64,000 nucleotides of DNA from NCBI GenBank assembly GCA_018812925.1, contig JAHJCU010000004.1:62001-126000 (forward strand), in the 5' to 3' direction. The stretch's first letter is position 1, and each line of letters starts with the position of its first letter. Position numbers and translations under genes: made by a program. Shown one piece after another: positions 5,709-49,897 of the stretch. The notes below the pieces were generated by a model that was not told the origin of the DNA, did no database searches, and saw only the letters and a list, made by a program, of their open reading frames with translations. The stretch comes from Candidatus Omnitrophota bacterium (lineage in GTDB: Bacteria > CAIJMQ01).

Positions 5709-6716
5709 ATGAAAGAAGCTTGGTTTTATAATGCAACGGAAAATAAAAATGTAACATGTTTTTTATGTCCGCATAACTGCCAAATCAAGCCAGGGGAAAG
5801 AGGACAATGCAATGTAAGGGAAAACATCAACGGGAAACTTTATTCACTCGTATATGGGAAAATTATTGCCGAACATATAGACCCAATCGAAAAAAAACCG
5901 ATTTACCACATATTGCCCGGTTCTTCGTCATACTCAATAGGGACTGTCGGCTGTAATCTTTCCTGCCGCAACTGCCAAAACTGGCAAATATCACAATTAG
6001 ATAAAAAATCTCCTATTCAAGGAAAGGACACCACCCCCAAAGAAATCGTAAAAAATGCTATTGAAAGTAATTGCAAATCCATTGCTTACACCTATACTGA
6101 GCCGACAATTTTTTATGAATTCGCTTATGATTGCGCAGTCCTTGCGCACTTGGAAGGTTTAAAAAATATTTTTGTCACGAACGGTTATATAAACAGCGAA
6201 CCTTTGAAAAAAATAGCTCCTTTTTTAGATGCGTGTAATGTTGATTTAAAATCTCTGAGAAAAGAAACTTATAAAAAAATCTGCGGGGGGAAATTAGAGC
6301 CGGTGAAAAACAGTATAAAACTGATGAAAAAATTAGGAATTTGGGTCGAAATTACGACTTTGATTATTCCAAAAGTAAACGATTCTTTCGAAGAAATCGC
6401 CGATATAGCCGATTTTATAAAAGACATTGGAGAAGAAACCCCTTGGCATATATCAGCTTTCTTCCCAAATTATCTTATGACGGATATTGCACATACTTCG
6501 GTATCTTCCTTAATAAAAGCCAGGCAAATAGGTATGGATAAAGGATTAAAATATGTATATACAGGGAATATCTCGATAGATGAAAACGAAAACACTTATT
6601 GCTATAATTGTAAAAATTTACTGATCCAAAGGCACGGATTTTCAGTAATTAAAAATATCGTCAAAAACAAAAAATGCCCGAATTGCAATGCAAAAATAGA
6701 CGGTTTTTTAGAATAA
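5709..6716 (+). CDS. AmmeMemoRadiSam-type radical SAM protein (AmrS-like)
   Basis: A 335-residue radical SAM enzyme related to pyruvate formate-lyase activating enzymes. The 4Fe-4S motif is C82-x3-C86-x2-C89 in VGCNLSCRNCQNW. The N-terminus has a further cysteine cluster (CFLCPHNC at 17-24, then C34 in RGQC), and the C-terminus a CxxC...CPNC zinc-ribbon-like pair. This layout with the CPHNC...GQC head is that of the AmmeMemoRadiSam group, normally accompanied by Memo-like and AMMECR1 proteins; neither is in this window. The substrate of the family is not established to my knowledge. It lies upstream of glnA on the same strand. Confidence 0.85.
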   Translation: MKEAWFYNATENKNVTCFLCPHNCQIKPGERGQCNVRENINGKLYSLVYGKIIAEHIDPIEKKPIYHILPGSSSYSIGTVGCNLSCRNCQNWQISQLDKKSPIQGKDTTPKEIVKNAIESNCKSIAYTYTEPTIFYEFAYDCAVLAHLEGLKNIFVTNGYINSEPLKKIAPFLDACNVDLKSLRKETYKKICGGKLEPVKNSIKLMKKLGIWVEITTLIIPKVNDSFEEIADIADFIKDIGEETPWHISAFFPNYLMTDIAHTSVSSLIKARQIGMDKGLKYVYTGNISIDENENTYCYNCKNLLIQRHGFSVIKNIVKNKKCPNCNAKIDGFLE

Positions 6717-8957: not shown

Positions 8958-10406
8958 ATGGAAATACAACAAAAACTCCAACAGAGACTGCAACAAAGGC
9001 TTATCATGACGCCTCAACTTAGGCAAGCTATGCACATTCTGCAACTTCCGATACTTGAACTAAAAGCTTTGATGGAAGAAGAGTTAATAAATAATCCTTT
9101 GCTCCAAGAACAATTAGACGAAGAAAAAGACAAAAATGAAACAGAAGAAACGTCGCAAGAAAAAAACGAAGAAATAAAAGAATTAGACAGCAAATGGGAT
9201 GAATATCTACAAATAACAAAATCACCCAAAAAATATACGCAAGAAGAAAGAGAAAGAAGAAACTATATCGAAAGTTCTATAACCAAGCCCATATCTTTAC
9301 AACACCATCTGGCTCAACAACTAAAAGAAACCGACTTAAAAAACCTAGATAAAGAAATTGCGGAAACCATTATCGCAAACATAGATGATGACGGGTATTT
9401 AAAAGCCGACATAAACGAAATAGCGCACATTCTTGATACCAATAAAGAAAAAGTAGAAAAAATTCTTTTGATAATTCAGGGTTTTGATCCTGTCGGAGTA
9501 GCCGCAAGGAACCTACAGGAATGTCTTCTATTGCAGTTAAGAGATGAAAAAACGCCTGCCCGCCCCGACCAGCAAAAAGCAGGGAGGAATGACGCTTTAT
9601 TAGAAAAAATAATCAATGAACATATAGACGATTTGGCAAACAAGAGATATCATAAAATTACATCTTCTTTAAAAATATCGGATGAAGAGTTAAGGAATAA
9701 AATACATATCATAGAAAAATTAGAACCCAAACCCGGCAGACAATATGCTTCTACCGAATTTAATTTTATAGTCCCAGACGTTATCGTTAAAAAAGTAGGT
9801 AACGATTACAAAATTATTGTCAACGAAAAGGAACTGCCCATTTTAAAAATAACTCCGTCATATAAAAAACTCCTACAAGAAAGCCAAAAAATCGACAAGA
9901 CAACAAAATACATAAAAGAAAAACTAACCAGCGCAGAGTGGTTACTAAAGAACATTCGACACCGGCAGGATACGATTTACAGGGTTACATCTTATATTGT
10001 CCAAAGACAAAGAGAATTTTTAGACAAAGGAGCCGGACATTTAAAGGTTTTGACATTAAAAGACGTTGCTGAAGCAACAGTTTTGCACTCTTCAACCATA
10101 AGTAGAGTAACATCCACAAAATACATAGAAACACCGCGGGGAATATTTAAACTTAGATATTTCTTTTCAGGCGGGTTAGCCAAAACAAGCGATTTACTTG
10201 AGGATGAAACAGAAATAACAGCATCAAGAAACGTAAAAAATTTAATAAAAACACTTTTTGAAAAGGAATCCCACAATCATCCGTTATCAGACCAGAGAAT
10301 GACAGACTTTCTCAATAAACAAGGATATAAAATCGCGCGCCGCACCGTAGCTAAATACAGGGAGCAACTCGGAATCCTGCCTTCCAAGATGAGAAGGACG
10401 CTGTGA
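8958..10406 (+). CDS. rpoN: RNA polymerase sigma-54 factor
   Basis: Alternative sigma factor that needs AAA+ activators for open-complex formation. The 482-residue protein shows region I (glutamine/leucine-rich MTPQLRQAMHILQLPILEL, residues 17-35), an acidic region II (about 50-80), the core-binding region, a helix-turn-helix (TLKDVAEATVLHSSTISRVT) and the RpoN box ARRTVAKYRE at 460-469. Residues about 199-212 (TPARPDQQKAGRND) look inserted into an otherwise variable loop and are encoded by a dispersed palindromic repeat. No Shine-Dalgarno precedes the ATG. No enhancer-binding activator is in the window. Confidence 0.96.
   Translation: MEIQQKLQQRLQQRLIMTPQLRQAMHILQLPILELKALMEEELINNPLLQEQLDEEKDKNETEETSQEKNEEIKELDSKWDEYLQITKSPKKYTQEERERRNYIESSITKPISLQHHLAQQLKETDLKNLDKEIAETIIANIDDDGYLKADINEIAHILDTNKEKVEKILLIIQGFDPVGVAARNLQECLLLQLRDEKTPARPDQQKAGRNDALLEKIINEHIDDLANKRYHKITSSLKISDEELRNKIHIIEKLEPKPGRQYASTEFNFIVPDVIVKKVGNDYKIIVNEKELPILKITPSYKKLLQESQKIDKTTKYIKEKLTSAEWLLKNIRHRQDTIYRVTSYIVQRQREFLDKGAGHLKVLTLKDVAEATVLHSSTISRVTSTKYIETPRGIFKLRYFFSGGLAKTSDLLEDETEITASRNVKNLIKTLFEKESHNHPLSDQRMTDFLNKQGYKIARRTVAKYREQLGILPSKMRRTL
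9553..9592. repeat. in-frame palindromic repeat inside rpoN
   Basis: The left part CCTGCCCGCCCCGA (9555-9568) matches 13 of 14 bases of the element inside recJ (reverse complement of 46158-46171). The right part, read on the minus strand, begins TCATTCCTCCCTGCTTTTTG and matches the element inside the glycosyltransferase gene at 12938-12957. The insert keeps the reading frame. Confidence 0.7.
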
Positions 10407-12588: not shown

Positions 12589-13710
12589 CTAATCTTTCCC
12601 CAAATACGGCTCAAACAGTTCTTGGTATAACTTTTCGGCATTAGATTTGGAACCTTGCATTGCTGGGAAACCTGAATATTTTTTTGCTTCTTCCACATCT
12701 CTTATAATATCAAGAGAGTACTGGCTTTTTGAATAAAACCATCCTTTTCCCATATAATATTGCGACAGATAAACCTGTTCCGTCTGTCCCGGAGTCGGTA
12801 TAAAAAGACATTTTGTCTTTCCTAATTCAGCTATTTCCATCATTGTCGTATAACCTGAACGGCTTATTATGAATTTTGCGCGATTCATAAGAACACTCAT
12901 TTCCTCGCGTCCAGCATGTGATTTTACGGTAGTTGAATCATTCCTACCCGCCTTTGAAGTAGTAGAGGGTAATTGATATTCGGAATTTTCAGAAGGCTTG
13001 CCTAAAAGCACCATTTTTTTGCCGGGAAGTTTTTGTACCTGTTTCAGCATCACTTCCTCAAGTATCGTCCTCTGCGGTTCCGGACCTGAAACGCTTATTA
13101 AAAAATCTATATCTTCGACTACATCTATCTTCCTTATACTTGAAAGTATCCCTGCATAATATATTCGCTCTTGAGTTGCTTTTCTTGTATTTAGTGAAAG
13201 AGTCCCGCTCAATGATACCGTATCAGGGCTGTTGTCTGGGACAATAACTCTTGTAAATTTTGAATGGTAATAGCTGTTGAAGCTTTGCGCCCACTGTTCC
13301 GCAAATGATAAAACCTTAGGAGCGCTGAAGCGCAACTGATGAGAGATAAGGAAAGAAGGAACGTCGGGAGAATACACGCCGAATCTATTATCACTTATTA
13401 TTAAATCGTATTTATTTTCCTTAAAAAACTGCCATGCTTTCTTTTCTTCAACACGGATGGCATGAATCATAATCGGAATATATGCGGTAAATTTTGCAAT
13501 AAAGAAACGACTTTTTGTATACGGTGGAGGATAATCAGGGAAACAGATAAATTCACACTGCGGAAATTCTTTTTGTAAGAATACAAGAGAAGGACCGCTT
13601 GAGGCAATAGTTATTTTGTGTCCGCGTTTGAGAAGTTCTCTGATTATCGGGACATCTCTGGTGGCATGCCCCAAACCCCAAGACAGGGGAGACACAAAAA
13701 TACGGGCCAT
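12589..13710 (-). CDS. glycosyltransferase, GT-B fold, MurG/GT28-like
   Basis: The 373-residue protein opens with VSPLSWGLGHATRDVPIIRE, the glycine/histidine loop of COG1819-type glycosyltransferases, and has the C-terminal donor-binding part with FIISRSGYTTMMEIAELGK and PTPGQTEQVYLS. That combination fits transfer of a nucleotide-activated sugar to a lipid or glycan on the cytoplasmic face. Residues about 246-268 (STTSKAGRNDSTTV and following) look inserted and carry the same repeat as rpoN. The gene begins one base after the stop of the PHP gene upstream, so the pair is probably translated together. Confidence 0.85.
   Translation of the reverse strand: MARIFVSPLSWGLGHATRDVPIIRELLKRGHKITIASSGPSLVFLQKEFPQCEFICFPDYPPPYTKSRFFIAKFTAYIPIMIHAIRVEEKKAWQFFKENKYDLIISDNRFGVYSPDVPSFLISHQLRFSAPKVLSFAEQWAQSFNSYYHSKFTRVIVPDNSPDTVSLSGTLSLNTRKATQERIYYAGILSSIRKIDVVEDIDFLISVSGPEPQRTILEEVMLKQVQKLPGKKMVLLGKPSENSEYQLPSTTSKAGRNDSTTVKSHAGREEMSVLMNRAKFIISRSGYTTMMEIAELGKTKCLFIPTPGQTEQVYLSQYYMGKGWFYSKSQYSLDIIRDVEEAKKYSGFPAMQGSKSNAEKLYQELFEPYLGKD
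12938..12957. repeat. in-frame repeat inside the GT28-like gene
   Basis: TCATTCCTACCCGCCTTTGA matches the minus strand of the rpoN insert (TCATTCCTCCCTGCTTTTTG) at 16 of 20 positions, without gaps. Both encode KAGRND in their host proteins, in a loop between secondary-structure elements. Confidence 0.65.
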
Positions 13711-14767: not shown

Positions 14768-15946
14768 TCATCCTGATATACCACTCTGACGCTTAACTAT
14801 CTTATCTTCCTCTGCCATTTTTCCGCAGAGCCATATCACCGGTCTAAAAATCTCTCTTGCAACATTCTTTAAAACGGGATAGTTGTTTATAATTTTAACT
14901 AGAACAGGAGAGATTCTATAATAAGCTGACACAAGGATTTGACCGACAGGGTTGGTCAGCAAATTATCATCTCTAAAACGCCTGCATAACATAATATCGT
15001 CTGGCGCTAAAGTAAAGTTTTCTATATAACAATGTGCTCCACCCCCATCCTTGTCGTCATTGTTGCCATCACTGCCTGCAATCACTTCCGGAACATACCC
15101 ATAACGATTTAGACATACGCGAGAGTAGGAAAAGCCGGCATCAGCCAATTTCTGCATCTCCTGCCCTCCCTCGTAATACATATACGTAACATACACAACA
15201 CCGTTTAAATCAACAGCTATTTGGGGATATGAAGAATCGCCTGCCCCCACATCAATGGAATCGCCATCGGCAAAAGTAGTTATCCAGCTTGAAGTATCAT
15301 TGTCCCATATACGCACATCTGTACCGTTATAACGGTTTAGATAAAGGCTTTCAGCCAGAAAATGAACATATGTCACATAAACATTGCCGTTTAAATCAAC
15401 AGCAAGTTGAGGAGTCTCGCAACCCTGTGTTCCGGGGTCAATCGGGTCACCATCAGTGAATGTATCCGTCCATTCAGGAACACCATTGTCCCATATGCGC
15501 ATATCCGTGCCGTCATACCGGTTTAGATATATATTAGAAACATCCGAATCTTCCTGCTGATAAGTAATATAAACTATCCCGTTTTGGTCAATAGCTATCT
15601 GCGGATACTGGGCAGCACCACTCGTGGGCTCATCAATAGGGTCGCCATCGGTGAAGGTGGTTGACCAGCCGGGTATATCATTGTCCCAGATTTCTACATC
15701 TATGCCGTCATACCGGCTTAAAAAGATACGGCGGCCAGCAAAATTCTGTTCAAAAACAGTATAAACAATACCGTTGGAATCAACAGCTATTTGAGGAAAA
15801 TATGCATTAGAATCCGTAGCCGCATCAATCGGGTCGCCGTTAGCAAACGTCGTTGTCCATCCGGGAATATCCTCGTCCCAAATTTCTGCTACTTGAGCAA
15901 AGCAGGCATTATTAATACTCAAAATAAACAATACAAAAAACAACAA
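14768..15946 (-). CDS. exported protein of four ~68-residue repeats with CFI-type tail
   Basis: After a hydrophobic export signal ending ACFAQ, the protein contains four tandem repeats beginning at about residues 21, 89, 158 and 222. Each follows the pattern IWD-D-P-W-TTF-DGDPID, then YPQIAVD-NG-VYVTY, then LNRYDGTD. The likely fold is a beta-propeller or similar. The C-terminus (CYIENFTLAPDDIMLCRRFRD, NLLTNP, YYRISPVLVK) is a divergent CFI-type module shared with the next gene. The only in-frame start is TTG at 15946. An ATG overlapping the upstream stop at 15954 is in another frame and would join if a T6 run (minus strand, 15935-15940) had seven Ts. Confidence 0.75.
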   Translation of the reverse strand: MLFFVLFILSINNACFAQVAEIWDEDIPGWTTTFANGDPIDAATDSNAYFPQIAVDSNGIVYTVFEQNFAGRRIFLSRYDGIDVEIWDNDIPGWSTTFTDGDPIDEPTSGAAQYPQIAIDQNGIVYITYQQEDSDVSNIYLNRYDGTDMRIWDNGVPEWTDTFTDGDPIDPGTQGCETPQLAVDLNGNVYVTYVHFLAESLYLNRYNGTDVRIWDNDTSSWITTFADGDSIDVGAGDSSYPQIAVDLNGVVYVTYMYYEGGQEMQKLADAGFSYSRVCLNRYGYVPEVIAGSDGNNDDKDGGGAHCYIENFTLAPDDIMLCRRFRDDNLLTNPVGQILVSAYYRISPVLVKIINNYPVLKNVAREIFRPVIWLCGKMAEEDKIVKRQSGISG

Positions 15947-15953
15947 TCAAACA

Positions 15954-17318
15954 TCAGTTTTTATTCCCTTGTAACAGCCAAACCACAGGTCTTAAAATCT
16001 CTCTTGCAACACCTTTCAACGCAGGATAGTTGTTTGTAAGCCCAACCAAAAAAGGAGACGCTCTATAATAGGTTGATACAAATAATATTCCTGCAGGATT
16101 AGCTAGCAAATTCTCGTCTCTGAAACGCCTGCATAACATAATATCATCTGGTGCTAAAGAAAAACCTTCTAAAAAACAAAGAGGTGCTCCACTACTACCC
16201 CCATCATCGGTATCGTCACCTTCATAATACTCAGGCACAGTTGATGTAACAAAATCGCTATTTGTTATTTCAGCATCACTTTCATCAGTAGCGGTTAACG
16301 TCAACTCATCGGTCGTACCTCCAGCGGTTCCTGCAGGAACGGTTAATTCTACTATCATACTGTCTGCTTCGTCAGGATCAAGTGTAATAGAACTTCCACC
16401 CGGAAGGTTAGTTGCCCACCCATTTGAAGAAGACGCAGATAAATCGTAAGTAGCCGGTTCTGCCTGGAAACTTTGCACTATAAAAGTATAACTTTTTACT
16501 TCACCGGCAGAAACGTCTTCATCGGCAGGCGCATATACCTGAACACTACCTGCACCCGTCCACTTCTCAAATGCAACAATCTGCCAAGTATTGCCGGGAG
16601 CAAGAGTGCTGCGATTCCATTGAACAGAATATCCGGCGTCAAGATCATCTCCATTCACCGTATTAGGAAGTTCTCCATCATCCATTTCATTCCAATTGGT
16701 GGTAAAGTCGTTCTCATGATACCTGTCAGCCAACGAACTCGGATGTCCGTATAAACCCATAATACCGGCATCTTCATTGTTAGGATTTTTAAGATATACC
16801 ATATTTATTACTGCGTTGTAATAACCCCTTGAATTATCATTTCCGTCAAAGTAAGTATCTCCTCCGTGCAGAAAACGGCAATCTGTATAAGTAGTACTAC
16901 CTGTATTTTCCATATCCCATTCCAATCTATAATAATAATTTCCGTTTGTATAATAAATCCTCTGCGTAACCCTAACACCCGTTGCTCCGGCATCATAAAC
17001 AGTTTCTATACTCCAGTCATCAGGTTTATTGTGAGACACGGGTGTAAAAAGAGTGCCTCCACAACCACCGGCAGGGACTGCTCCCATTGAAAACTGCTGT
17101 GATGTCCCGTCCAAAAAAAGAACAGAACCCTTGGCATTAATACCAAAATACTGTCGAGTTACACCATATAGAATTCCCATTTGAGCGCAGTCATCTGCCT
17201 GAATAGTTAATGGTGTCCCATCAATTTGAAGCCATACATCATCTGCTTTTACAGAATTAGGCAAAAACATGCAAATAAATCCAACAATGAATAAATAGCA
17301 GAAAAATCGCTTTCCCAT
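15954..17318 (-). CDS. exported protein with CFI-type C-terminus
   Basis: The start at 17318 (MGKRFFCYLF) has AAGGAG eight bases upstream, so it is preferred to the ATG at 17354. The signal peptide ends near VKADD. The body (about 30-290) is beta-rich with an aromatic/glycine-rich pattern (YYRLEWDMENTGSTTYTD, FLHGGDTYFDGND) and a segment at about 300-360 resembling an immunoglobulin-like NEW3-type domain (TVPAGTAGGTTDELTLTAT). The tail CFLEGFSLAPDDIMLCRRFRD, NLLANP, YYRASPFLVG is nearly identical in design to that of the downstream neighbour. Role at the cell surface likely, ligand unknown. Confidence 0.75.
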   Translation of the reverse strand: MGKRFFCYLFIVGFICMFLPNSVKADDVWLQIDGTPLTIQADDCAQMGILYGVTRQYFGINAKGSVLFLDGTSQQFSMGAVPAGGCGGTLFTPVSHNKPDDWSIETVYDAGATGVRVTQRIYYTNGNYYYRLEWDMENTGSTTYTDCRFLHGGDTYFDGNDNSRGYYNAVINMVYLKNPNNEDAGIMGLYGHPSSLADRYHENDFTTNWNEMDDGELPNTVNGDDLDAGYSVQWNRSTLAPGNTWQIVAFEKWTGAGSVQVYAPADEDVSAGEVKSYTFIVQSFQAEPATYDLSASSSNGWATNLPGGSSITLDPDEADSMIVELTVPAGTAGGTTDELTLTATDESDAEITNSDFVTSTVPEYYEGDDTDDGGSSGAPLCFLEGFSLAPDDIMLCRRFRDENLLANPAGILFVSTYYRASPFLVGLTNNYPALKGVAREILRPVVWLLQGNKN

Positions 17319-44079: not shown

Positions 44080-45084
44080 TTACGGATAAAATAGTATTTT
44101 GCAGGAATTTTTTGCTTCTACGGCAAGTTTCAAGCCCTTCTGGAAATCTTTCAACGACAGACGGTGGCTGATAATAGAGGTTGCATCTTTTAACTTACCA
44201 CTTACAAACATATCAAAGACCTCTTTCTGTTCTATCGGTGTGGACGAATAAGTTCCTAAAATCAGCGTCTCGTGGTATATGAGATTCGGGTCAAGCTGAA
44301 CCCTGGTATTATCGGGCACTTGCGCAAATATACTTAGTTTACCCCCTACTCTGACCATATCTAAAGCTTCCTCAACAGCTTCTTTATTACCTACACTGAC
44401 GATAACTATATCGGATTCTTTAAATTTATCTATTTTTTTATTCTTTATATTGATAACATCTTCCGCACCTAATTTTTCAGCAAATTCAAGTCTTGAATCT
44501 ACCACATCAACCAAACGGATGCTCTTTACTCCCATTGTTTTTAAAAGAATAAGATGCATAATCCCTGAAGGGCCTGCCCCGATTATAGTCACTACATCTT
44601 TGGGTTCAATTTGTATTCTCTTAATATTTCTCCAAGCGCACGCAAAAGGTTCAATTAGAACTGCTTCTTCATCGCTTAAAGAATCCGGTAAGGGTATAAC
44701 ATTATTTTTTACCAACTCTTTGGGAACTTTTATAAATTCCGCAAAACCGCCGGGTTTGATATTTGTACTCTTGAAAAGCTCACACAAAGAAAAAGTGCCT
44801 TGCTTACAGTATTTACAGGAAAAACAGGGAGCATGATGGCTTACAAATACTCGCTCGCCAACTTTAAAACTGCCGACATTTCTACCCTGTTTTTCAATGG
44901 TTCCGACTACTTCATGGCCCAAAACAGAACCTGACTGAACCGATTCCTGTTGTATTTTGTAGATATCTGTTCCGCACAGACCGCATATCTTAACTTTTAT
45001 AAGAAGTTCATCGTCCGTAATTGTGGGAACGGGAATATCTTCATATTTGATATGGTAAGAAGAATAAAAAACTTGCGCTTTCAT
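44080..45084 (-). CDS. zinc-dependent alcohol dehydrogenase family protein (MDR superfamily)
   Basis: 334 residues. Catalytic zinc site: GLCGTDIY and GHEVVGTIEKQG. Structural zinc lobe: CFSCKYCKQGTFSLC, four cysteines intact. The NAD-binding Rossmann loop is VTIIGAGPSGIMHLILLK. The overall make-up resembles sorbitol or threonine dehydrogenases, so a polyol, sugar alcohol or threonine is a plausible substrate, not determinable here. Its start overlaps the stop of recJ by four bases (ATGA), so it is translationally coupled to a DNA repair gene, probably by chance of operon assembly. Confidence 0.9.
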   Translation of the reverse strand: MKAQVFYSSYHIKYEDIPVPTITDDELLIKVKICGLCGTDIYKIQQESVQSGSVLGHEVVGTIEKQGRNVGSFKVGERVFVSHHAPCFSCKYCKQGTFSLCELFKSTNIKPGGFAEFIKVPKELVKNNVIPLPDSLSDEEAVLIEPFACAWRNIKRIQIEPKDVVTIIGAGPSGIMHLILLKTMGVKSIRLVDVVDSRLEFAEKLGAEDVINIKNKKIDKFKESDIVIVSVGNKEAVEEALDMVRVGGKLSIFAQVPDNTRVQLDPNLIYHETLILGTYSSTPIEQKEVFDMFVSGKLKDATSIISHRLSLKDFQKGLKLAVEAKNSCKILFYP

Positions 45085-46799
45085 TGAACATCCTCCATTT
45101 TAAGTATAACCGAATTTCTGTTTTCCCATCCATCAATTTGCGCTGTATAAGCCAAATCTATGATGTCCTGCTTGTTCAAAACATTTAAATAATCCGCTTT
45201 ACCAAAACCGATAACTTCTCTATGAAATTTTTCATCTTTTACCCAGAATTTTATATGATTGGAACCGACTTTTTTAGGTTCGGTCATTATTTGAAGATTC
45301 TTGGTTATAAAAACCGGTTCTTCGTTGCTTAAACCAAAAGGAGAAAAAAGTTGAAATTCTTTTACTACCGAATCAGTAAGAATATCCAAAGACATATAAG
45401 CATCCGCTACTAACAACGAAGTGAATTCCTCAATAGGTAACTCTTCGGCTAAGCTATTTATCTTGTTTCTAAATGGCTCTATATTATCCTGCGCAATCTC
45501 CAATCCGCAGGCGTGTTTATGTCCGCCGAAAGTTACAAGCAATTCTTTTACTTTTCCCAAATTTTCGAATAAATTAAAATCACCTATACTGCGTCCGGAG
45601 CCCCTGCCAATACCGTTATTCAAAGAAATCAAAATCGCGGGTTTAGAGAATTTATCCACAAGACGCGACGCAACTATACCAATTACTCCCGGATGCCATC
45701 CTTCATTGGCAAGGACAAGAATTCTATTTTCACGGAAATTGACATTTTCTTCCGCCATCTTCATAGCTTCCTGACAAATTTCTTCTTGTATTTTCTGTCT
45801 TTGTTTATTATCCGCTTCCAATAAAGAAGCAATCTCCAAAGCTTCTTGTTCACACTGGCTCAAAAGCATCTTAACGCATTTATCGGCAGTATCAATCCTT
45901 CCACCTGCATTTAAACGCGGACCCAAAATAAAACCGATATCGCGCGTCGTAATATTTTTGTTATTAATTTTGGCAGTGTTTTTTAAAGCATTTATGCCAA
46001 CTTTTTTAGAAGAATCGAGTTTACTTAAACCATATTTAACTAATATCCTGTTTTCTCCTATAAGCGGAACCACATCACTTACAGTCCCAAGAGCAACTAA
46101 GTCAAGATGTTCTTCGAGGAAATCAAGTTCTTCCCGCCTGCTTGTCCCGATGTTACGTCGGGGCGAGCAGGTTTTCTCCTGCAACACTTGAGCGAACTTA
46201 AATACGACCCCAACGCCTGCGAGTTCTTTAAAAGGATAAGAACAAACTTTTGGGTTTATAACAGCTAATGCCGGAGGGATATGAACGCCTGCTTTATGAT
46301 GGTCAACAATTATCGTATCTATACCTTTTTGTTTGGCTAACAATATTTCTTCGGAACCGTCCATACCGCAATCACATGTGATTATTAATTTTACATTTTC
46401 CTTTTCTGCTTGTTTTATGGCTGTCATGTTTAGACCATAACCATCCTTAACTCTATGCGGCATATAATAAGAAGCATTTGCTCCAAGCTGTTTTAACGTA
46501 AGAAGCATAAGACATATTGACGTTATTCCATCAACATCGTAATCCCCATAAACAAGAATTTTCTCGTCGTTTTCAATAGCCTGAAAAACTCTGGCAGAGG
46601 CTTCCCCAATCCCATTCAAAAGATACGGAGAATGAAGATCAGACAAGTTGCCGTTTAAAAATGCTTGCGCTTCCTTGGGCGTTTTACTGCCGCGATTTAT
46701 CAACAGTTGCGCAGTACACGGAGAAATTCCTAAAACATTAGAAATTTGACCCGAAAGAAACGGTTCAAGTTTTTTTACTTTCCAGCGTTTCGGTTGCAT
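45081..46799 (-). CDS. recJ: single-stranded-DNA-specific exonuclease RecJ
   Basis: 572-residue DHH-family 5-prime to 3-prime exonuclease for recombination and mismatch repair. Motifs: VYGDYDVDG (85-91), TCDCGMDG, the DHH motif TIIVDHHKAG, and the DHHA1 part with GRGSGRSIGDFNL and FGGHKHACGLEI. Residues about 209-225 (TCSPRRNIGTSRREEL) interrupt an otherwise conserved stretch and come from a palindromic repeat. The ATG (MQPKRWKVKK) has no Shine-Dalgarno. The downstream dehydrogenase gene overlaps by four bases. Confidence 0.96.
   Translation of the reverse strand: MQPKRWKVKKLEPFLSGQISNVLGISPCTAQLLINRGSKTPKEAQAFLNGNLSDLHSPYLLNGIGEASARVFQAIENDEKILVYGDYDVDGITSICLMLLTLKQLGANASYYMPHRVKDGYGLNMTAIKQAEKENVKLIITCDCGMDGSEEILLAKQKGIDTIIVDHHKAGVHIPPALAVINPKVCSYPFKELAGVGVVFKFAQVLQEKTCSPRRNIGTSRREELDFLEEHLDLVALGTVSDVVPLIGENRILVKYGLSKLDSSKKVGINALKNTAKINNKNITTRDIGFILGPRLNAGGRIDTADKCVKMLLSQCEQEALEIASLLEADNKQRQKIQEEICQEAMKMAEENVNFRENRILVLANEGWHPGVIGIVASRLVDKFSKPAILISLNNGIGRGSGRSIGDFNLFENLGKVKELLVTFGGHKHACGLEIAQDNIEPFRNKINSLAEELPIEEFTSLLVADAYMSLDILTDSVVKEFQLFSPFGLSNEEPVFITKNLQIMTEPKKVGSNHIKFWVKDEKFHREVIGFGKADYLNVLNKQDIIDLAYTAQIDGWENRNSVILKMEDVQ
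46137..46171. repeat. in-frame palindromic repeat inside recJ
   Basis: CCTGCTTGTCCCGA (46137-46150), loop TGTTACG, TCGGGGCGAGCAGG (46158-46171): 14-base arms with two G-T type mismatches. The arm matches the rpoN insert at 13 of 14 bases. The insertion keeps the recJ frame. Confidence 0.75.
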
Positions 46800-48664: not shown

Positions 48665-49897
48665 CTATTTTCCCAGTGACAATTTATATATTCTCACAAT
48701 ATCGTTTTCCTTAACTTCCACTGGGTTGGATTCTATAGGTCCTTGCCCGGTTACCATCGCGCTTTTTACCATATTATTTATACTGCCCGGGTCAACTCCC
48801 AATTCTTGCAGCCCTTTATCCATACCTATTTTTTTTAGTAGTTCTTTTACGGCTTCTACCGATTTCATTGCCTCGTATTTATTTGTTCCAAATGCTCTCT
48901 TGCCCATTGCTCCTGATGCAAGACAATATTTCTGCAAGGTAGTATTGTCACCGTTTTCGATATTGAACTGCATGATGTGAGGGGTTAAGGCAGCAAGTGC
49001 GGCGCCGTGTGAAATATTAGGATAATAAGCGCTGATTGGATGAGACATTGCGTGAGGCAATACAACACGCGAGGTGGTTATCACAAATCCTGCATATGTA
49101 TCAGCCAAAGCCATTGCGCCTCTACTTCTTATGTTATCACCGTTTCTATAAGTATCTGTTAAGTAATTGAATACCAGTTCGATACCTTTCAAAGCCATTT
49201 CTTCCGTAATGGGATTGCAATTTTTTGAAACCAGCCCTTCAAGACAATGTGTTAATACATCAACGCCGCATTCGGCAGTTAAAGCAGGCGGCATATTCGT
49301 TAAAATTTCCAAATCCACAACGGAAAGTTTTGGGAAAATATGCTGTGAATATATTCCCATCTTTTGTTTAAGCTCAAGATTAGTTATTACGGAAAATCGC
49401 GTTACATGAGAACCTGTTCCCGAACTTGAAGTTATTGCTACTATGGGAAGTGTTTTTGATGTTATAGGTAGCGGAGTACTTTGAGATGGTGAAAAAGCCC
49501 ATATTGATTGGAATTCTCCCTGCCCTGAACCAGAACAAGTTCGGTTCAGGGTGGAGCTATGACCTGCGACTATGGCTATAGCTTTTGCGGCATCTATACT
49601 TGAACCGCCGCCAAGACCAATAATCACATTGCATTTATTTTCCAAAGCAACTTTTGCGCCTTCATCTACTAATTCTGTTGTGGGATTAGGTGTAATTTTG
49701 TTGAAAACAGTTACTTTTATTACGTGATTTTTCAGATGGTCAATTATTTTTTGAGTAAAACCCAACTGATCCATACTGTTTCTGCCTGTTACTAATAGAA
49801 CATTATCTCCAAGTTTTTTTACTTCTTCGGATATTTTAACCGATACGCCTTTCCCAAAAAGCAGATTTACTTTTGGCAGTTCAAAATTGAAATCCAT
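48665..49897 (-). CDS. iron-containing alcohol dehydrogenase
   Basis: 410 residues with the Fe-ADH fold: NAD site GLGGGSSIDAAKAIAI (94-109), SSGTGSHVTRFSVI, and the iron-ligand region with ECGVDVLTHCLEGLVSK, LPHAMSHPISAYY and ISHGAALAALTPHIM. Substrate (butanol, propanediol, lactaldehyde or other) is not determinable. Residues about 113-128 (SSTLNRTCSGSGQGEF) lengthen the loop after the NAD site and coincide with a palindrome (49523-49551). A GGAGG ribosome site precedes the ATG. It is divergent from the transaldolase gene. Confidence 0.92.
   Translation of the reverse strand: MDFNFELPKVNLLFGKGVSVKISEEVKKLGDNVLLVTGRNSMDQLGFTQKIIDHLKNHVIKVTVFNKITPNPTTELVDEGAKVALENKCNVIIGLGGGSSIDAAKAIAIVAGHSSTLNRTCSGSGQGEFQSIWAFSPSQSTPLPITSKTLPIVAITSSSGTGSHVTRFSVITNLELKQKMGIYSQHIFPKLSVVDLEILTNMPPALTAECGVDVLTHCLEGLVSKNCNPITEEMALKGIELVFNYLTDTYRNGDNIRSRGAMALADTYAGFVITTSRVVLPHAMSHPISAYYPNISHGAALAALTPHIMQFNIENGDNTTLQKYCLASGAMGKRAFGTNKYEAMKSVEAVKELLKKIGMDKGLQELGVDPGSINNMVKSAMVTGQGPIESNPVEVKENDIVRIYKLSLGK
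49523..49551. repeat. palindrome inside the Fe-dehydrogenase gene
   Basis: CCCTGAACC (49523-49531), A, GAAC, AA, GTTC, GGTTCAGGG (49543-49551): 13 pairs with one bulged base. The upstream ATTCTCCCTGC resembles ATTCCTCCCTGC of the rpoN repeat, one base shorter. It is translated in frame within a variable loop. Confidence 0.65.

Follow-up and report, generated by a model that had tools for sequence, protein, structure and literature searches.

The window analysed here, a stretch of 64,000 nucleotides from the genome of a Candidatus Omnitrophota bacterium, carries genes for the sigma-54 factor RpoN, for RecJ, for a GT28-like glycosyltransferase (GT), and for an iron-type alcohol dehydrogenase (ADH), each with a short in-frame insert (Table 1). 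The source genome (G000, 1.47 Mb) was compared with two congeneric genomes (G001 and G002), one genome of the same family (G003), and genomes of another family (G004–G006); G003–G006 served as outgroups. Orthologues were found by chimeric protein queries and aligned at the protein and DNA level. Beyond the Pfam-assigned rpoN, recJ, and GT genes, gene names were read from the translated sequence.

Table 1. Genes, inserts, and repeat units of the window and of genome G000
Feature	Position in window	Strand	Length	Sequence or remarks
rpoN (sigma-54) gene with insert	8958..10406	+		Pfam Sigma54 AID, CBD, DBD
rpoN palindromic insert	9555..9587	+	33 nt	Degenerate copy; adds PARPDQQKAGR; CCTGCCCGCCCCGACCAGCAAAAAGCAGGGAGG
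GT28-like glycosyltransferase gene	12589..13710	-		Pfam Glyco_tran_28_C
GT28-like gene insert	about 12945..12971	-	27 nt	In frame; TACCC/GGGTA ends
recJ gene	45081..46799	-		Pfam DHH, DHHA1, RecJ_OB
recJ insert	46133..46171	-	39 nt	About 13 residues, TCSPRRNIGTSRR; hairpin 46137-46171 plus CGGG tail, coding strand
Second hairpin family, iron-type ADH	49520..49555	-	about 33 nt (11 aa)	In frame
Second hairpin in ADH, arms and loop	49523-49552			CCCTGAACC-GAACTTGTTCT-GGTTCAGGG; loop GARCTTGYTCT
Empty site, same ADH	49801..49802	-		G001 has 27-nt in-frame element PARQSLDGG
ADH insert (G000), the second-family hairpin above			33 nt
V-ATPase A insert (G000)			33 nt	In frame
V-ATPase B insert (G000)			39 nt	In frame; predicted insert-region peptide SARPDVPSEQAGG
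RsmD insert (G000)			33 nt
HypF insert (G000)			51 nt	Composite
M20 peptidase insert (G000)			39 nt
PfkA insert (G000)			33 nt
CoaBC insert (G000)			39 nt
ValRS insert (G000)			33 nt
DEAD-box helicase insert (G000)			33 nt	Predicted insert-region peptide NLPASCGSKQAGG
Transketolase insert (G000)			33 nt
UvrA insert (G000)			54 nt	From another hairpin
RACo-like gene inserts (G000)			24 nt	Plus a second insert
AddA-like gene inserts (G000)			33 + 60 nt
FolK insert (G000)			21 nt
Lnt insert (G000)			27 nt
Fumarase domain insert (G000)			27 nt
FolC insert (G000)			27 nt
39-nt unit			39 nt	CCTGCCCGCCCTGATGTTACATCGGGACAAGCAGG+CGGG
33-nt unit			33 nt	CCTGCCCGCTTCTTGCGGAAGCAAGCAGG+CGGG
33-nt unit			33 nt	CCTGCCCGCTTCGATGCGAAGCAAGCAGG+CGGG
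27-nt unit, example			27 nt	CCTGCCCGCTTCCGCAAGGCAGGCGGG
27-nt unit, example			27 nt	CCTGCCCGCCAAAGATTGGCAGGAGGG
21-nt unit			21 nt	CCTGCCCGACAAGCAGGCGGG
25-nt unit, sister subfamily			25 nt	CCTGCCCGCTTCGCAAGCAGGCGGG

The initial annotation had described a palindromic repeat in rpoN, recJ, and the GT gene, adding about 14–20 residues at each site. All three inserts are indeed in frame (33, 39, and 27 nt), but they add 11, 13, and 9 residues, respectively, and the palindrome in the ADH gene is a fourth in-gene site besides the three described. The 35-nt hairpin in recJ (46137-46171) was confirmed, and its minus-strand arm, CCTGCTCGCCCCGA, agrees with the rpoN sequence CCTGCCCGCCCCGA (9555-9568) at 13 of 14 bases, with one difference, as had been claimed. 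The proposed end match between the rpoN and GT inserts is also present, but the shared AATGA consists partly of native host codons: TAATGACC occurs in rpoN of a relative with an empty site, and TGAATTT occurs in relatives of the GT. To read AATGACG as an end belonging to the element, in the manner of a CGTC REP, was rejected on the same grounds, AATGAC being native in rpoN of the empty-site relative. The insertion in the GT gene is genuine and in frame, its nine residues being absent from G001, G002, and G003, but by sequence it matches the family weakly and is only loosely related to it.

A hairpin family across the genome

The rpoN and recJ inserts are members of a GC-rich hairpin family that occurs genome-wide, in dozens of copies, with the consensus CCTGCCYG...CRRGCAGG followed by CGGG. 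In coding-strand orientation the unit consists of the hairpin and then CGGG, and inserts of the core family are 21, 27, 33, or 39 nt long. With one mismatch allowed, the arm pattern CCTGCYYGYCCCGA was found at 16 places in G000 compared to one for the reversed control, and the exact-arm pattern CCTGCYYGN{8,38}CRRGCAGG at 14 places compared to none. A search with a 35-nt model returned full copies at E-values of 8.5e-12 to 2.9e-10, these being the same five copies from which the model was built; the recJ hairpin, at 56.8 bits, is itself one of the five. Many further genomic copies were thus found by patterns and model; their absence would, on the terms of the initial annotation, have counted against it. 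Copy numbers obtained by these searches of G000, with the model scoring up to 150 candidates per genome, are to be read as "at least". The rpoN copy scores only E 0.27 with the family model within the window and is assigned to the family because of its arm and its empty site; the short 3' pattern GGNAGGAATGACG matched rpoN only.

The copies in the genes for RsmD and the DEAD-box helicase are identical DNA in unrelated genes. The same repeat DNA was found between genes too, about half of the well-scored copies lying inside genes. Most copies fold into stable hairpins, at about -8 to -30 kcal/mol. The predicted insert peptides are short and rich in Pro, Ala, Arg, Lys, Gln, and Gly, of the types LPASxxSKQAG or PARPDVTSGQAGG.

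The strict 33-nt core pattern occurred in G000 (7) and G001 (2) and nowhere in the rest of a 386-genome search. A loose arm pattern run over 60 genomes, among which seven genomes of the host class were returned, lost its specificity far from the genus. Hairpins with CGTCATT ends, situated outside long open frames in G004, are possibly older relatives of the family.

In-frame gains, empty sites, and the reading frame

At least 20 genes of G000 carry in-frame inserts that add 7 to 20 amino acids compared to the relatives. For every insert there is a relative that lacks it or has a shorter version, with exact empty sites in the orthologues. The relatives checked for the same residues lack them at these sites, so that the second finding named by the initial annotation as a refutation was not made either. 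Since the outgroups G003–G006 are empty wherever available, the inserts are gains. In the DEAD-box helicase gene of G000, AA is followed by CCTGCCCGCTTCTTGCGGAAGCAAGCAGGCGGG and then AGGGCGCGG, where three relatives have AA followed directly by AGGG... The rpoN site is empty in G003 (CAIJMQ010000043.1) and occupied in G001, where the residues read PAYPDQQKTGR. The recJ site is empty in G002 and G003, and in G001 the same hairpin contains a further nested insert of 27 nt that keeps the frame. No target-site duplication was seen in the empty-site DNA alignments, for instance those of the DEAD-box helicase, CoaBC, and V-ATPase B genes.

Some inserts are common to G000 and G001 (RpoN, RecJ, CoaBC, Tkt, V-ATPase B, FolC, and ADH) and others are found in G000 only (DEAD, PfkA, ValRS, V-ATPase A, UvrA, and GT), so that gains went on after the split of the two species. 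G000 and G001 encode the same insert peptide in V-ATPase B, their DNA differing by one synonymous change. On its own, G001 has gained the 27-mer nested in its recJ hairpin and 18 codons of FolC. Another of its proteins (L251), for which no G000 orthologue was found, contains a 33-mer that G002 and G003 lack. In the window, insertions that keep the frame and span at least 8 codons relative to its kin are nearly all GC-rich hairpins. Some inserts of G000 (GT, UvrA, and the 24-nt insert of RACo) are divergent or of other hairpin families.

In alignments with solved sigma-54 structures the rpoN insert is a gap position, and the recJ insert falls in a gap of the alignment with the solved RecJ 8y30. 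Gaps coincide with the inserts of V-ATPase B and the DEAD-box helicase as well, and the alignment of PfkA to a solved structure breaks off at the insert. This pattern of gaps fits a placement of the inserts at loop positions.

Every insert length, and every later indel inside an insert, is a multiple of three, including deletions of 9 nt from the RsmD insert in G001 and of 12 nt from the CoaBC insert in G002, and no stop codon lies within the host reading frame at the inserts. The 25-nt sister subfamily, whose length is not a multiple of three, has 13 copies in G000 (9 at equal score) and 5 in G001, none of the 5 being inside a gene; two 25-mers lie close to the 5' ends of open frames, ahead of plausible start codons. 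With the G000 copies sorted manually, 0 of the 13 25-mers were genic compared to about 17 of 24 copies with lengths divisible by three (Fisher p 2e-5). The 25-nt subfamily occurs solely outside genes, probably because selection removes frame-breaking insertions. The "selection for translatability" proposed in the initial annotation is therefore supported in the form of purifying selection on the frame, given that genes hold multiples of three only and no 25-mers. We infer that this selection acts as a filter on insertions, and the conserved frame suggests that the inserts of this uncultured organism are translated.

Among the 33-mers, most have no stop in any of the six frames and some have stops in one or two; the 39-mers, the V-ATPase B copy excepted, are interrupted by a stop in one or two. 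By manual count, about 15 of 16 core genic copies have the CCTGCCCG strand as the coding strand (p 0.0005). As a possible cause of this bias, a weaker fold of the RNA in coding orientation was considered; the energies differ strongly for 39-mers but not for all 33-mers.

Origin of the inserts and relation to known elements

Our preferred reading, to which we assign a probability of about 0.88, is that non-autonomous palindromic (REP-like) elements have spread in these genomes, are translated when they lie in genes, and are filtered by selection on the frame. Short elements would have spread in the common ancestor of the genus and would still do so in the present species, with copies of 21, 27, 33, or 39 nt inserting without target-site duplication. 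A copy landing in a gene would add whole codons that are translated, and would be kept at positions where an additional loop is tolerated; frame-breaking insertions would be purged. As a mover we tentatively suggest, at less than even odds, a Y1 (RAYT-type) transposase acting by single-strand copying and either lost from or unsampled in G000.

It is most improbable that the inserts are ordinary lineage-specific protein loops, GC-rich and hairpin-like by chance, with no mobile family behind them. Variable loops are common at such positions, and the inserts of GT and RACo show only a loose relation to the family, but identical or near-identical DNA of 33 and 39 nt in unrelated genes refutes this for the core family, and the same DNA is also intergenic, with control patterns near zero. 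Scarcely more credible is a removal of the hairpins at the RNA level, or their bypass by ribosomes, leaving proteins free of the residues. The stable folding of most copies and the shared orientation of most genic ones would suit this, but a removed sequence would not need a frame, whereas lengths and later indels are multiples of three and the frame is free of stops; known signals for bypass or self-splicing were not seen either.

A rather unlikely, though not negligible, explanation is that the elements are classical REPs of the GTAG or CGTC type, mobilized by a resident RAYT transposase. In its favor are the size, the hairpin with an unpaired 4-nt end (CCCG), the absence of a target duplication, the Y1/RAYT genes (PF01797) of G001 (4) and G002 (2), and the CGTCATT-ended hairpins of G004. 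The tag CCCG is, however, neither GTAG nor CGTC, no PF01797 gene was found in G000, the RAYT flanks of G001 differ, and a RAYT gene of G002 has a copy as an insert, not in its flanks. We are similarly doubtful of a gene-dwelling hairpin lineage, split from the 25-nt intergenic one, whose lengths (21, 27, 33, and 39 nt, in steps of 6), frame openness, orientation, and tolerance of nesting were shaped by translation, gene-borne copies seeding new ones. The length classes, the six open frames of most 33-mers, and the dominance of different subfamilies among genic and intergenic copies speak for such a lineage, but 33-mers are intergenic too, stops interrupt one or two frames of the 39-mers and of some 33-mers, and plain survival of in-frame insertions gives the same pattern. 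If it did exist, it would represent translated selfish DNA adding loops to the proteome.

Rickettsia is known to have palindromes that lie in frame in genes (RPE; Ogata et al., 2000, 2002, as cited in PMC10969869 and PMC3733652). In-frame intragenic REPs have already been described outside the Rickettsiales, in Opitutus terrae, Thauera, Xanthomonas, and other bacteria, some of them Proteobacteria (PMC3733652). The genes reported to contain intragenic REPs include uvrA and those for RNA helicases and tRNA synthetases (Di Nocera et al., 2013, PMC3733652). The comparison with the palindromic elements of Rickettsia and Wolbachia drawn in the initial annotation is apt as regards behavior: palindromes lie in frame in unrelated, mostly housekeeping genes, are absent from orthologues, and occur between genes as well. 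RPE differ in measuring about 150 bp (PMC10969869), whereas the present elements are 21–39 nt long, have another sequence, and belong to an uncultured lineage. RPE-4 and RPE-6 are short CGTC REPs; a 25-nt sister subfamily seen only outside genes is a feature of the present family.

GTAG and CGTC REPs (PMC3733652) are likewise hairpins of 20–40 nt with an unpaired end, some of them intragenic, but they lie mainly between genes and bear a GTAG or CGTC tag, whereas the present family ends in CCCG and has about half of its well-scored copies in genes. No GTAG tetranucleotide stands at the hairpin base, the conserved unpaired end in the 33-nt alignment being CCCG; a CGTC end followed by A-T stem pairs is absent from this alignment, and no RAYT (PF01797) gene flanked by the present repeat, as is characteristic of GTAG REPs, was found in G000 or G001. 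By size or by tag, the family is therefore filed as neither RPE nor tagged REP. MITEs (PMC10969869) resemble it in being small, non-autonomous, and able to fuse with ORFs, but here a single hairpin of at most 39 nt has neither a target-site duplication nor separate terminal inverted repeats. Searching the literature for comparable elements of candidate phyla yielded nothing on point. New are the family, the lineage, and the 25-mer contrast; the behavior was already known from RPE and intragenic REPs.

The Rickettsia-type phenomenon is hereby extended to a small-genome candidate lineage, for which species-level empty sites, ancestral and derived states, and nested events, often missing elsewhere, are supplied, and in which the 25-mers set against the multiples of three form an internal control showing selection on the frame. 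The inserts constitute a ready set for testing translated selfish DNA as a steady source of protein loops. Annotations and alignments of such genomes need to be used with care, as they include recent insert peptides.

A second hairpin family and other repeats

The ADH hairpin (49520..49555) represents a second, unrelated hairpin family; it is present in G001 and absent from G002 and G003. At the other, empty ADH site (49801..49802), G002 also has nine residues, PARQGINGR. In the RACo-like and AddA-like genes, an outer hairpin of the second family holds a 27-mer nested in its loop, a composite that perhaps moved as one unit or inserted at a favored target.

In G002 (C5, about 6158-6192 of the contig), a palindrome of the family lies in frame in the C-terminal part of a RAYT-type Y1 transposase gene, which has 446 codons. 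In G001, a RAYT gene (G001:C39) is flanked on one side by hairpins of the CCCACCTCCGAGGTGGGA type, which are also found near one end of its frame; it is a candidate REP-transposase unit distinct from the studied family. RAYT flanks were rejected as a source of the elements, the RAYT-flanking hairpins of G001 being of other sequence.

The 18 codons of the UvrA insert (G000 C11:229137), which is absent from G001–G004, consist of CCCGACGTCCGTC-type hairpins and thus represent yet another family of palindromes. Some 25-mers of G000 C11 (L230, L232, L233, and L234) are embedded in longer, AT-rich repeats between genes, TTACGAATTACG...CTTTACGAGTTA, that have the look of a separate repeat family. Within the window, two adjacent genes at 14829-16190 contain direct repeats of 53–215 nt that are 68–77% alike and, by appearance, form part of a secreted or surface-type protein.
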